This document shows positions 23,290-57,941 of a stretch of 64,000 nucleotides of DNA, one piece after another. Position 1 is the first letter of the stretch; each line of letters begins with the position of its first letter. The notes under the pieces are model-generated. The model did not search any database and was not told where the DNA came from. It saw only the letters and a program-made list of their open reading frames with translations. The position numbers and the translations under genes were made by a program. This DNA comes from Microbacterium proteolyticum. Its GTDB lineage: Bacteria; Actinomycetota; Actinomycetes; Actinomycetales; Microbacteriaceae. The stretch covers positions 744,001 to 808,000 of the forward strand of contig NZ_JAUSZZ010000001.1 of assembly GCF_030818075.1 (NCBI RefSeq), written 5' to 3'.

Positions 23290-23348
23290 GCGCTCCTGCG
23301 CTCGTGGGGGCTGGCGGCACCCGGAGGCACGCTGTGCCCGCCTGATCA

Positions 23349-23398
23349 TGTCCCACTTTGTGCGAGTTCGCCGCCGCTTTCTCGCACGAAGTGGGACA
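23349..23398. repeat. stem-loop element A
   Basis: 18-bp arms TGTCCCACTTTGTGCGAG (23349-23366) and its near-perfect complement (23381-23398, one G-T mismatch) around a 14-nt loop. A third arm, TCGCACGAGGTGGGACAC, recurs alone at 23483-23500. Together they fill most of the 366-bp gap between the aldehyde dehydrogenase terminator and the DUF779 gene. Confidence 0.75.
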
Positions 23399-23620
23399 CG
23401 GCTCCGGCGCGTCGTCCTCTGTCGGGGATTGCGGCACCACGTGGAGCGCCATGTCCGGGCCGTGCGCTTTCGGACTTTCGCGTCGCACGAGGTGGGACAC
23501 AGTGTCCGTCCGCCGCTGAAGGCGGGGCGCCGGCGGCCGAAACGTCCCCGTTCGTGCCGGCCGGGGACACCCCGCTCGCACCGGGCGGGACATGACTACT
23601 CAGAGCAAGGAGAAGAACGG

Positions 23621-30561: not shown

Positions 30562-30655
30562 GCGCGCGATAGGCGGTATAGGCGCGCGATCGGTCGAGAA
30601 CGGCCGTTCGCGCGTCGTGCGGTGATCCTGGGCGCCGTTCGGGGTCGTTTGGCGT

Positions 30656-30713
30656 CGAGTGTCCAAGACACGCCGCGTGCCACCGGGCACTTGCGGCGTG
30701 TTGTGGACACTCG
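30656..30713. repeat. stem-loop element B1
   Basis: 21-bp arms (30656-30676, 30693-30713; 19 of 21 pairs) around a 16-nt loop. The arm core is GTGTCC..ACACGCCGC. It lies in the 380-bp gap after metY, which also contains two copies of AGGCGCGCGAT near 30563 and 30582 and no gene. Confidence 0.8.
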
Positions 30714-30806
30714 ACAGGTTGCGTAGGCAGCTTCCGGCGGCGGCCTCTACGGGCCGAGTGACGGTGCGCCCGGTCCGGCTGCGGTACCGTCCGGCGTCAT
30801 CGGGCG

Positions 30807-30866
30807 TTGAGCGTCCACAACACGCCGCATCGACCTCGGCCCGCGCGGCGTGTTTCGGACACTCAA
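30807..30866. repeat. stem-loop element B2
   Basis: 22-bp arms (30807-30828, 30845-30866; 19 of 22 pairs) with a 16-nt loop. The arms are close copies of those of B1, 150 bp away, so this is a duplicated element. Confidence 0.8.
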
Positions 30867-30942
30867 CAGGGTCGCGCGGAGGTAGCGCGGCGTCGAGCGC
30901 GGCACCTGTCCCAGCGGGGTCGAGGCCCGCGCGGCATTGACC

Positions 30943-43953: not shown

Positions 43954-43994
43954 AGAACGGCCCCGTTCCTGCTTCGGCAGGGCGGGGCCGTTCT
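43954..43994 (+). terminator. terminator of rpsF-ssb-rpsR-rplI
   Basis: Long interrupted stem closed by a TTCG tetraloop: AGAACGGCCCCG pairs with CGGGGCCGTTCT and CCTGC with GCAGG. It starts 15 nt after the rplI stop. Confidence 0.85.
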
Positions 43995-44201
43995 GCGTGT
44001 CGGCGGGGTGGGGTCGTTTGGCGTGTCGGTGGGGTGGGGTGGCCGTGCTGCGTGTCGGTGGGGCGGGGTCGTTTGGCGTGTCGGTGGGGTGGGGCGGCCG
44101 GTCCGCGTGTCGGTGGGGTGGGGTCGTTCTGTGGGTCGGGCGGTGGGGCGGCCGTTCCGCGTGGCGGCGAGGCGGTTCTGCGTGTCGGGCGAGGCGGGGT
44201 C
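43986..44201. repeat. degenerate 55-bp tandem repeat
   Basis: Units start at 43986, 44041, 44096 and 44150, each opening GGCCG and holding two CGTGTCGG-GGGGTGGGG half-units of about 27 bp. The first unit overlaps the right arm of the rplI terminator, so the array probably grew from it. The 490-bp gap 43939-44429 has no gene. Confidence 0.75.
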
Positions 44202-44429: not shown

Positions 44430-46145
44430 GTGACCGAAAGCCGCGAACCCGAGCGCCTCGTACGGCGCTTCGCGCGCGAGACGAACCTCCTGATCGCCGG
44501 TCGACCCTTCGCGGTGCGCGGCGAGAACGCGCCGGCCCTGCACGATCTGCTCGCGCGGCTCGGTGGCATCCCGAGTCCTTCGCCTGCTCCCGGCCGCGTC
44601 GAGTTCGATCTGGATGCCGGCACCACGCTGCTCGACGGAGCGACCCTGCCGGAGCGCGGGGACGCGGCCGGCCGCATCGGGTTCGCCCGCATGCACATGC
44701 CCGTCGCTCGGGCGATGGCCGACCGCCTCGACCTGAGCGGTCTGCGAGTCGGTGTGGCGATGGTGCTCGAGCCGAAGACGGCCGTGCTGTCGCTGCTGCT
44801 GCGCGAGCGCGGTGCCGAGGTGTCGGTGTACGCGCACCCCGATGAGACCGATGTCGCGGTCGCCGAGGAGCTGCGATCGCGCGGCTTCTCCGTCACGGCC
44901 GACCCGGATCTCTCCGGCGACGCGGAGCGCGTCGCCGCGCTCGCGTTCCTTCGCGCGGGCATCGACGTGCTGCTGGACGACGGCGCGCACCTCATCCGTC
45001 TCGCCCACGAAGACGACCCCGCCCTGCTGGACGGCTGGATCGGCGCGTGCGAAGAGACGACGAGCGGCCTCACACCCCTGCGGCGGATGCAGCATGCCGG
45101 CATCCTGCGCATCCCCGTGATGGCGGTCAACGACGCCCGCATGAAGACGATGTTCGACAACCGGTACGGCACGGGGCAGTCGTGCGTCTTCGCGATCGCC
45201 GACCTGCTCGAGGAGCGGGGGATTGCGCTCACCGACCAGCCGGCCCTCGTGCTCGGATACGGTCCCGTGGGGCAGGGGGTCGCGGCGCACCTGCGCGCCT
45301 TCGGCGTCGAGGTACGCGTGGCCGAGACCGACCCGGTGCGCGCGCTCGAGGCCCGGCACGACGGGTTCGTGACGGGGCCGGCGGTCACCTTGGCATCCGG
45401 TGCCCTCGTCGTCTCGGCGACGGGCGTCCCCGCGACGGTGACACCCGACATCGCCGCTGTCGCGCGCGCGATCGCGGTGGCCGGGGGAGTGCCCGGCGAG
45501 GTCGTCCCGCTCGCTCGACCGTCGTCGGGGCCGGGCGCCATCCTCGACGGCGCTCTCTCGGGTGCGGGCGCGCCGGGTGCGGTGTCGTTGACTTCGGCTA
45601 AATGTTCGCCGGACGGGCTTCCTGGCGGTCATTTGGCGCAAGTCAGCGGGGAGGGTGTGGGTGCGGAGGGTGCTGTGTCGTTGACTTCGGCGGAATGTTC
45701 GGCTGACGCGGTTTCTGGCGGTCATTTGGCGCAAGTCAGAGGGGAGGGTGTGGGTGCGGAGGGCGTTGTGTCGTTGACTTCGGCGAAATGTTCGCCGGAC
45801 GGGGCTCCTGGCGGTCATATGGCGCAAGTCAGCGGGGACGCAGGTGAGAAGGGTGCGGGCGCGGCGCTGCTGCTCGGCGGTGGGGGAGCGGTCAACATCA
45901 CCGCGGCCGAGGGCAACCCCATCGAGATCATGGACCTGTCGTTCTCGGTGCAGCTCGCGGCGCTGGGGGAGCTGCTCGCGCGTCGACCCGGGCCCGGCGT
46001 TCATGCCATCTCGTCCGAGGTCGACGACCTCGTCGCCCGTACCGCCCTGGCCGTCCGCGGTGCGGCGATCGACCCGCCTCGCGCGCTCGACGTCGACGGG
46101 CTCGACGACTGGCGCTCGCCGAGATACCGCGGCGGTGACGGGTGA
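44430..46145 (+). CDS. divergent S-adenosylhomocysteinase homologue with repeat insertion
   Basis: 571 aa, of which about 480 are family sequence. Recognisable: substrate region EETTSGLTPLRRMQHAGILRIPVMAVNDARMK, then FDNRYGTGQS, the NAD motif LGYGPVGQGVAAHLRAFG, and the C-terminal NITAAEGNPIEIMDLSFSVQ. The usual GHFDxE histidine is not visible; that place reads AVAGGVPGEVV. Residues 384-476 are three 31-aa repeats encoded by palindromic DNA, inserted without breaking the frame. The C-terminal Lys/Tyr of canonical enzymes is also missing. It may hydrolyse a modified nucleosyl-homocysteine. The stop overlaps the amidohydrolase start (GTGA). Confidence 0.82.
   Translation: MTESREPERLVRRFARETNLLIAGRPFAVRGENAPALHDLLARLGGIPSPSPAPGRVEFDLDAGTTLLDGATLPERGDAAGRIGFARMHMPVARAMADRLDLSGLRVGVAMVLEPKTAVLSLLLRERGAEVSVYAHPDETDVAVAEELRSRGFSVTADPDLSGDAERVAALAFLRAGIDVLLDDGAHLIRLAHEDDPALLDGWIGACEETTSGLTPLRRMQHAGILRIPVMAVNDARMKTMFDNRYGTGQSCVFAIADLLEERGIALTDQPALVLGYGPVGQGVAAHLRAFGVEVRVAETDPVRALEARHDGFVTGPAVTLASGALVVSATGVPATVTPDIAAVARAIAVAGGVPGEVVPLARPSSGPGAILDGALSGAGAPGAVSLTSAKCSPDGLPGGHLAQVSGEGVGAEGAVSLTSAECSADAVSGGHLAQVRGEGVGAEGVVSLTSAKCSPDGAPGGHMAQVSGDAGEKGAGAALLLGGGGAVNITAAEGNPIEIMDLSFSVQLAALGELLARRPGPGVHAISSEVDDLVARTALAVRGAAIDPPRALDVDGLDDWRSPRYRGGDG
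45579..45857 (+). repeat. three in-frame copies of a 93-bp palindromic element
   Basis: Units start at 45579, 45672 and 45765; 93 bp equals 31 codons (AVSLTSAKCSPDGLPGGHLA...). Each unit carries 22-bp inverted arms, in unit 1 at 45589-45610 and 45624-45645, 17 of 22 paired, with a 13-nt loop. Length is a multiple of three and no stop is introduced. Confidence 0.88.
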
Positions 46146-50592: not shown

Positions 50593-52368
50593 TCAGGCCA
50601 TGCGGTTCCGGCGCGACCTCGCGATCAGTCCGGTGACGAGCAGGGCGAGGGCACCGACGCCCAGGCCCCACACACCGCCGAGGTCACTCCCGGTCACGGC
50701 GAGCGTCCGAGGAGCGGATGCCAGAGGCAGCCCCGTCGCGGAGCTCACCGACGCCGTGGTGCCCTGAACGGGCATGGACGTTGCCGAGGTGCCGGGGTTC
50801 CCCGGCGTTCCGGGGTTTCCCGGGTTGCCGGGCGTTCCGGGGTTCCCCGGGTTGCCGGGCCTTCCGGGGGTGCCAGGGTTGCCGGGCGTTCCGGGGGTGC
50901 CAGGCGTGCCGGGTGTTCCGGGTGTTCCGGGTGTTCCGGGGGTTCCGGGGGTTCCGGGGGTGCCGGGGGTTCCGGGGGCTCCGGGGGTGCCGGGGCTGCC
51001 GGGAGTCCCCGGGGTGCCGGGGGTGCCAGGTGTGCCAGGAGCGCCGGGGGTTCCGGGGTTCCCCGGGGTGCCGGGGGTGCCGGGCGTGCCGGGGTTCCCC
51101 GGGGTTCCGGGCGTTGCCGGGGTGCCGGTGTGCGACCCGCCGGTGTGGCTGTCGCCGATGATCGACACGGCGTTGCCGCCGACGGTGACGGGCAGCGAGA
51201 TCGGGGCGATCAGCTGGTTGCCGCCGAGGATGCTGTCGGTGCCGCCCGTGGTGGGGTCACCCGCGTGTCCGCCGTTGGCGCCGCCGGTTGTGGTGGTGTC
51301 CTCCGAGGTGCTGTCGCCGACGACGGAGATGGCGTTGCCTCCGACGGTGACGGGCAGCGAGATCGGGGCGATCAGCTGGTTGCCGCCGAGCAGGCTGTCC
51401 GCGCCGGCCGTGCTGACGTCGCCGACGGAGCCCGCCGAGCCACCTGCGTCGGTCGTTCCGCCCGAGGTGGTGGCATCTGTGCTGTCGCTGTCGCCGATGA
51501 CGGAGACGGCGTTGCCGCCCACGGTCACGGGAACGTCGACCGAGACGACGCCCTGGTTGCCGCCGGTCAGGCTGTCGGTGCCGCCGGTGGTGGCGTCACC
51601 TGCCTGCCCGCCGCCGCTGGCGCCGCCCGAGGTGGTGGCATCCGTGCTGTTGCTGTCGCCGACGACGGAGACGGCGTTGCCGCCCACGGTCACGGGAACG
51701 TCGACCGAGACGACGCCCTGGTTGCCGCCGGCCAGGCTGTCGGTGCCGTCGGTGGTGGCGTCACCTGCCTGTCCGCCGTCACTGCCGCCGCCTGAGGTGT
51801 CGGCGTCCGTGCTGTCGCTGTCGCCGATGACGGAGACGGCGTTGCCGCCCACGGTCACCGGAACGTCGGCCGAGACGACGCCCTGGTTGCCGCCGAGCAG
51901 GCTGTCCGCGCCGTCGGTACTGACGTCGCCGCCGGAGCCGGCCGAGCCGCCTGAGCCGTCCGACCCGTCCGAGGTGGTGGCATCCGTGCTGTCGCTGTCG
52001 CTGTCGCCGACGACGGAGACGGCGCTGCCGCCCACGGTCACTGGGACGTCGACCGAGACGATGCCCTGGTTGCCGCCGAGCAGGCTGTCGGCGCCGTCAG
52101 TGCTGACGTCGCCGACGGAGCCGGCCGAACCACCTGAGCCGTCCGAGCCGTCCGACGTCGTGGCATCCGTGCTGGTGCTGTCGCCGACGACCGAGACGGC
52201 GTTGCCGCCGACCGTCACGGGCGCGTCGACCGCAACGACGCCCTGGTTGCCGCCGAGCAGGCTGTCGGCCCCCGAGGGTTCCGCGGCGTTCGCGACGCCG
52301 CATCCGAGGACGACCAAGCCGCCCCCGACGAGCGCGCCCATGAGGACGCGCGAGTGGATCTTGCGCAT
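50593..52368 (-). CDS. surface protein: seven chaplin-like repeats plus collagen-like stalk
   Basis: 591 aa. A signal peptide ([19 protein letters not shown]) is followed by seven units of about 50 aa, each with [25 protein letters not shown], close to the Streptomyces chaplin pattern. Spacers are Asp/Ser/Thr/Gly-rich. About 120 residues of Gly-x-Pro triplets ([12 protein letters not shown]) form a collagen-like stalk. The end is [10 protein letters not shown], a helix and RSRRNRMA, a class E-type LAxTG sortase signal. The repeats lack the paired Cys of some chaplins. AGGAG precedes the ATG. Probably wall-anchored, aggregating at the surface. Confidence 0.85.
50786..51126. repeat. collagen-coding 9-bp-type repeats
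   Basis: Runs of CCGGGxGTT/CCGGGxGTGC encoding Gly-(Thr/Asn/Ala)-Pro triplets inside the surface-protein gene. The repetition makes slippage and length variation likely. Confidence 0.8.
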
Positions 52369-57836: not shown

Positions 57837-57856
57837 GGCTCCCTGCCCCCTCGCGC

Positions 57857-57912
57857 GAGTCGCCAGGATGTGTCGCTTCCGGTCATGCCGCGGCGACACA
57901 TCCTGGCGACTC
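57857..57912. repeat. stem-loop element C
   Basis: Perfect 20-bp inverted arms (57857-57876, 57893-57912; GAGTCGCCAGGATGTGTCGC) around a 16-nt loop, 20 nt after mmsA and 29 bp before the convergent PucR gene. It could act as a bidirectional terminator, but has no T-run and shares the geometry of the other intergenic elements. Confidence 0.85.
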
Positions 57913-57941
57913 ACGCGTCGGTGCGGGAGGCTCGGCGTTCG

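Follow-up and report, generated by a model that had tools for sequence, protein, structure and literature searches.

The best-known cases of palindromes that code for protein come from Rickettsia. In the available text of PMC2229807, RPE measure 105-146 bp and include 19 in-frame cases, and the references of the same paper contain reports of palindromes in protein genes for Wolbachia and Methanocaldococcus jannaschii. The family described here, found in Microbacterium, resembles RPE as characterized there in that its palindromic repeats occur both between genes and fused in frame within protein genes. It differs in its length of 57 bp (about 63 bp with a flanking CGN), which lies outside the RPE range, in its 13-bp centre and its tandem arrays, in that half of its loci are common to other species, and in that its loci are mainly intergenic, with three cases inside open reading frames. 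The portion of PMC3733652 considered here defines REP by a GTAG or CGTC tag and stems of 5-13 bp, with a RAYT association for GTAG. Like these REP and BIME sequences, the Microbacterium elements are short palindromes that form clusters, mostly downstream of genes and in some cases within them, whereas they end in CGN-TGACTT and have 22-bp arms, and no Y1 transposase was found, so that they depart from REP in tag, stem and RAYT association. PARCEL, presented in the accessible part of PMC2996958 as a 25-residue amphipathic protein motif, likewise involves dyad-symmetric DNA encoding tandem protein repeats, but in the Microbacterium family different genes encode different peptides and the majority of copies are intergenic. 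The tandem repeats of Borgs share units divisible by 3 in open reading frames and disordered stretches, although neither the word 'palindromic' nor a dispersed dyad family appears in the available text of PMC9879509. Palindromes within protein genes are, in these partial accounts, already a known kind (PMC2229807, PMC3733652, PMC2996958), and among the paper titles returned by a literature search none concerned a family of palindromes in Microbacterium or Microbacteriaceae.

The window examined here is a stretch of 64,000 nucleotides (positions 744001-808000) of the source genome, G000, a single contig of 3.77 Mb from Microbacterium proteolyticum, which its closest named relatives would place in the M. 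testaceum group. Its features of interest are the following, with the evidence in brackets.

44430..46145, plus strand: adenosylhomocysteinase-like open reading frame (AdoHcyase / AdoHcyase_NAD), 571 codons (family matches; dN/dS outside the insert)
45501..45872, plus strand: the complete additional segment of 124 residues (358-481) (orthologue comparison; predicted structure)
45560..45838, plus strand: tandem array of three 93-bp units (Tandem Repeats Finder and repeat search)
45589..45645, no strand assigned: 57-bp dyad element, copy 1 (dyad scan and covariance model)
45682..45738, no strand assigned: 57-bp dyad element, copy 2 (dyad scan and covariance model)
45775..45831, no strand assigned: 57-bp dyad element, copy 3 (dyad scan and covariance model)
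45646..45681, plus strand: G-rich spacer of 36 bp between copies 1 and 2 (sequence)
45739..45774, plus strand: G-rich spacer of 36 bp between copies 2 and 3 (sequence)

Tandem Repeats Finder described the array at 45560-45838 with a period of 93, 3.0 copies, 87% matches and no indels, a second repeat search returned three registered copies, and the frame of the gene stays open across all three, the array being open in two of its six frames. An earlier sequence-only reading of this DNA had proposed three 93-bp tandem units that leave the frame unbroken, which these results bear out; the limits it gave, 45579..45857, are about 19 bp off. Its 22-bp inverted arms are correct in length and surround a centre of 13 bp in each dyad, but they are imperfect, because only 17, 15 and 16 of the 22 positions form Watson-Crick pairs. 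It had also likened the array to the Rickettsia elements. This likeness holds for the outcome, an in-frame palindrome in a protein, and fails for size and for demonstrated mobility; the array works like an RPE as described in the literature, a class of which it is at most a putative member.

Two arm patterns, allowing up to three mismatches, each match only the three array dyads in the window, against 0 expected from 100 shuffles. The idea that the intergenic palindromes of the window share the same arm-loop geometry did not hold, since the other long dyads, at about 8.87, 21.5, 23.3, 30.65, 30.80 and 57.85 kb among others, have different arms and centres. Two dyads about 153 bp apart at 30651-30871 have the related arms GTCGAGTGTCC..ACACGCCG and GTTGAGCGTCC..ACACGCCG and constitute another palindrome family. 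The dyad at 23344-23403, with arm TGTCCCACTTTGTGCGAG, has arms like those of dyads adjoining XDH-like genes in other Microbacterium genomes (L290, L292, L296, L302), and the near-perfect dyad at 57848-57921 (21 of 22 pairs, centre about 16-22 bp) is unlike the 57-bp family. Tandem repeats of other kinds are also present: a G-rich 55-bp repeat at 43986-44197, not a 57-bp dyad, lies just before the AdoHcyase-like gene, with an open reading frame on its other side that we take to encode ribosomal protein L9, and 9/27-bp and 165-bp repeats at 50788-52269 lie within the reverse-strand frame 50593-52368.

Comparison with orthologues placed the insert after the NAD-binding part and ahead of the C-terminal NITAAEGNPIE motif, as previously stated, and found it absent from the orthologues compared. 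At this position, where the AdoHcyase-like protein has 124 residues, the orthologues of nine relatives (identity from 81% down to about 63%) have only 9-12 and six more distant ones have 31-32, both sets comprising only loci with a regular-expression match. The nearest orthologue among the genomes compared, from the close relative G020, has 11 residues, and the covariance model finds no element in the G020 genome. The same peptide in other orthologues, which would have spoken for an old domain, was searched for as well, and among 4950 scored candidates the insert peptide was found once, in the AdoHcyase-like protein itself. On these comparisons, the insert looks private to one lineage, with one genome carrying the insertion. 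The predicted structure has pLDDT of about 25-60 in the insert, below 50 at residues 363-461 and 470-475, and mostly above 90 in the remainder, while dN/dS outside the insert is 0.19-0.22 against six relatives, indicating purifying selection. Because of this high pLDDT outside the insert and these dN/dS values, the enzyme looks maintained while carrying a floppy, predicted disordered insert.

Among the three copies, 17 of the 93 columns vary, distributed as 4 of 44 in the arms, 5 of 13 in the loop and 8 of 36 in the spacer (arms against the rest, Fisher p 0.035), with no difference in the core half-site. Their pairwise differences at codon positions 1, 2 and 3 number 12, 10 and 12, counts that are small and not independent. 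Since the differences are spread evenly over codon positions and spare the core arm bases, the constraint on them looks to be at the DNA level. Over 21 arrays, per-site differences amount to 0.036 in the core half-site, 0.091 in other arm bases and 0.156 in loops, with exceptions in which the order is reversed at 1034 and 3478 kb, and for other arm bases against loops at several loci. The conservation of the core is partly ascertainment, because the scan used the core to find the elements.

The palindromic unit recurs elsewhere in the genome, according to both a half-site pattern and a dyad scan. The pattern, allowing up to two mismatches, matched 83 + 76 = 159 places in G000, and the reversed control pattern matched 0. 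In the window and 22 other stretches of G000, 100 scan matches, less a weak one at 3372406 and two overlapping register duplicates, left 97 elements at 26 loci, and the centre is 13 bp in all 97 with 9-19 bp allowed. A covariance model, which presupposes the 57 positions, recovered the same loci and at least three further sites (3601606, 3630548, 3630787) outside the 97 analysed. The G000 half-site reads TGACTT..G....ATG..CG, its positions being conserved at 0.87-1.00 with most of these bases required by the scan itself, and beyond the 57 bp conservation is confined to a CGN at either end, which belongs to the dyad and gives a unit of about 63 bp. The 57-mers are 92% identical within a locus and 71% between loci, from which the arrays appear to grow locally. 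By a purpose-made simple gene caller, 23 of the 26 loci are intergenic, the gap being convergent at 12, tandem at 8 and divergent at 3, while three lie inside open reading frames; gaps of at least 60 bp in the window comprise 8 convergent, 17 tandem and 10 divergent ones. Soon after the array at G000 1034786 (L097) there is a run of at least 28 G, a possible sequencing or assembly problem.

The three coding cases are the AdoHcyase-like gene with three copies, an XDH-like gene at 501 kb with two, and a frame at 1170 kb, presumably encoding an amidohydrolase, with one. In the XDH-like gene (L091:2407-5439; G000 500906-503938), the two in-frame elements have an 84-bp period and sit in the linker between the iron-sulphur and molybdenum parts, and the element at 1170 kb sits in a low-complexity C-terminal tail. 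Two different frames are used and the encoded peptides are unrelated. The spacings within frames, 84, 93 and 93, are all divisible by 3, compared with only 13 of 68 intergenic spacings of up to 300 bp. In the XDH-like linker, the dyad stands in the same phase at four of 30 loci (G000, G055, G044 and G006, decayed in G006), and since the phase is kept in four species, residence in coding sequence can be old. Further XDH-like homologues, such as P0157 and P0177, have periodic linker peptides, seen as protein only.

The covariance model matched at least 28 of 119 genomes of the genus, G000 included (up to 47 candidates scored per genome), and in a family-wide sample 13 of 198 other genomes, all of other genera, matched more weakly. 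Among the 15 other-genus loci listed, 13 have a centre of 13 bp, one has 12 and one is without a clear element. Shared places were assigned from the neighbouring genes after manual verification that the element lay on the corresponding side, with eight loci examined in G058; elements on the opposite side of a shared gene (G049 at 527 kb, G049 and G052 at 932 kb) were not counted. On this basis, G007, G058, G049 or G052 carries an element at the position orthologous to 12 of the 26 G000 loci, or to 13 with the XDH-like linker. Nine of 13 loci in G007 are at places common to G000, the more distant G049 and G052 share only the 3336-, 3371- and 3372-kb places with G000, and these two genomes, with 16 and 17 loci respectively, have nine places in common. 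Copy number changes in place, for example at 3336 kb, where G000 has 3 elements and G007 and G052 have 1 each. Arm types differ at three of the nine places common to G049 and G052, TCACTTGCGCT against TGACTTG.CGTATATG, a comparison in which four of the 17 G052 elements, those with centres of 12 or 14 bp, are out of register.

The array in the AdoHcyase-like gene is probably a DNA-level passenger, derived from a family of protein-bound dyads, that came to lie in a tolerant loop and there expanded to three tandem copies. The 57-bp unit belongs to a set of dyad DNA sites of Microbacterium that are mostly intergenic and have weaker relatives in other Microbacteriaceae. Because the length of the centre is near-fixed, its sequence is free, the conserved bases are specific and the places are conserved, we infer a putative sequence-specific dimeric DNA-binding protein that would read two half-sites at a set spacing. 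One copy would have entered a length-tolerant loop of the AdoHcyase-like gene in this lineage and then been tripled in tandem with its flank, as at most family loci in G000, the tandem copies arising perhaps by replication slippage or unequal exchange. Within the gene, only changes that keep the frame (93 = 3 x 31) would have survived.

A selfish mobile palindrome of the MITE or Rickettsia type, still jumping and landed in frame by chance, is an unlikely origin for the array, even though it would account for the many dispersed copies and for the empty AdoHcyase-like locus in the orthologues compared. Arrays near 840 and 846 kb, whose 57-mers are up to 98% identical (one difference; between-locus maximum 0.982), suggest recent copying over a short distance and fit such an element, whereas identity between loci averages 71%, 13 of the 26 loci are common to at least one other species and only the CGN flank is conserved outside the element. 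A point against the passenger reading is that the element at another locus nearest to the AdoHcyase-like array is only 79% identical, so no donor is seen. The mobility of the dyad family is demonstrated only insofar as new loci exist. The Y1/RAYT transposase domain PF01797 is absent from G000 and from 118 of 119 genus genomes, its one occurrence being in G041, which is not among the 28 with elements; a RAYT/Y1 transposase as mover was rejected on this absence. Searches of 72,556 plasmid records, 50,697 phage records and IMG/VR, with one G000-type query or pattern each, gave no match, which also speaks against a mobile palindrome, and on this result a phage, plasmid or viral origin was rejected.

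A gene for an MTES_1575-like nuclease (G000 3371387-3372226) at L109 (G000 3371333-3372786; PF18741 at 31.2 bits, below the cut-off of 38.2) is flanked on both sides by elements in G000, G007, G049 and G052, which would suit a mobile palindrome, yet none of 30 other PF18741 loci has a family-like element. Its neighbouring gene presumably encodes peptide chain release factor 2. As PF18741 finds a match in 118 of the 119 genomes and exceeds its cut-off in 50, the presence of this domain family cannot be correlated with that of the elements, and the PF18741 nuclease was rejected as the cognate protein on the grounds that the flanked genes represent one orthologous locus and that the other 30 loci lack the element. 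A looser motif occurs in 10 of 27 dyads at PF18741 loci and in 9 of 87 at three control sets, but it counts only as a lead, since it was selected post hoc and a single locus supplies half of the ten. The plain density of dyads, 0.219 per kb at PF18741 loci, is unspecific for them, because one control set reaches 0.182 per kb, the others having 0.065 and 0.075. At one PF18741 locus (L346, in G054), several dyads with arms like CGATTGCGCCACGTGAGCC surround the nuclease-like gene.

A further, rather doubtful proposal is that the dyads are recognition sites of an undescribed chromosome-wide system, in which many of the same places, numbering roughly 12 to 24 loci per genome, would be kept while the arms are rewritten to each genome's own current type. 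The arms would track a rapidly evolving cognate protein, possibly a PD-(D/E)XK-like nuclease resembling MTES_1575, and genes such as the AdoHcyase-like one could host a site within their coding sequence.

It is improbable that the elements form a family of RNA hairpins acting as 3' end stabilisers, terminators or mRNA structures, with three hairpins in the AdoHcyase-like mRNA. The mostly intergenic position, with 12 of the 26 loci in convergent gaps, favours such a family, and the three divergent loci tell against it. The coding strand of the three elements gives good RNA folds (-29.4, -20.8 and -24.0 kcal/mol; z -5.1, -1.9 and -2.2), and no Rfam family reaches its gathering score in the window. 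The hairpin centre would be 13 nt of free sequence, which is unfavourable to this explanation. Matching between the arms of an element exceeds that of shuffled arms in G049 (0 of 2000 shuffles) and G007 (P 0.006), as a hairpin would also give, and not in G058 (0.867) or G052 (0.106), where the four out-of-register elements lower the values. In G000, by contrast, the arms match at 17.02 of 22 positions against 16.97 for arms shuffled between loci, column shuffling agrees, and neither procedure finds RNA-stem covariation beyond column make-up. Because paired arms match no better than shuffled ones, the half-sites of G000 behave like sequence that is read, and a stem role may apply in other species.

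The polarity of the non-Watson-Crick pairs also argues against RNA hairpins, since it tracks the replication strand. G-T tends to one strand per locus and, with dnaA at 742 kb in G000 and the terminus assumed opposite, is found on the leading-strand sense at all 13 right-arm loci and at 10 of the 11 left-arm ones, hence at 23 of the 24 that could be scored (two-sided p 3e-6). Several of these rest on 1-4 pairs, and two loci were left out because their G-T and A-C counts are equal. Among ten scorable loci with co-oriented genes or within open reading frames, the polarity fits replication at nine and transcription at six, running against transcription at 305, 432, 501 and 678 kb. Spacers are skewed in the same sense, with a G+T content of 0.69 on the right and 0.37 on the left, and more so than other intergenic DNA of the same stretches, which has 0.52 and 0.47. 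Replication-linked mutation bias or orientation-dependent tandem expansion could underlie the polarity, and either would give it.

An ordinary variable-number tandem repeat, or an old disordered domain selected as protein, is very improbable. A unit divisible by 3 and intrinsic disorder, as in the Borg protein repeats, would be natural for it, but the unit carries a dyad found genome-wide, the differences between copies are even over codon positions and the peptide is confined to one protein among the candidates scored. That copy number or assembly at the array is an artefact is scarcely credible, for although a single genome is concerned, tandem repeats are hard to assemble and the evidence is the assembled sequence, the copies differ at 17 columns and the frame stays open.

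The dyads of this Microbacterium lineage are sites whose places are often kept and whose arm type is sometimes switched, which multiply in tandem and can lodge in frame in enzymes. Their enzyme hosts are an AHCY-like loop in one species and an XDH-like linker in four. Such cases allow constraint on the DNA to be told apart from tolerance by the protein, and the dyad sites offer a set of markers with which to look for a protein that would read them.
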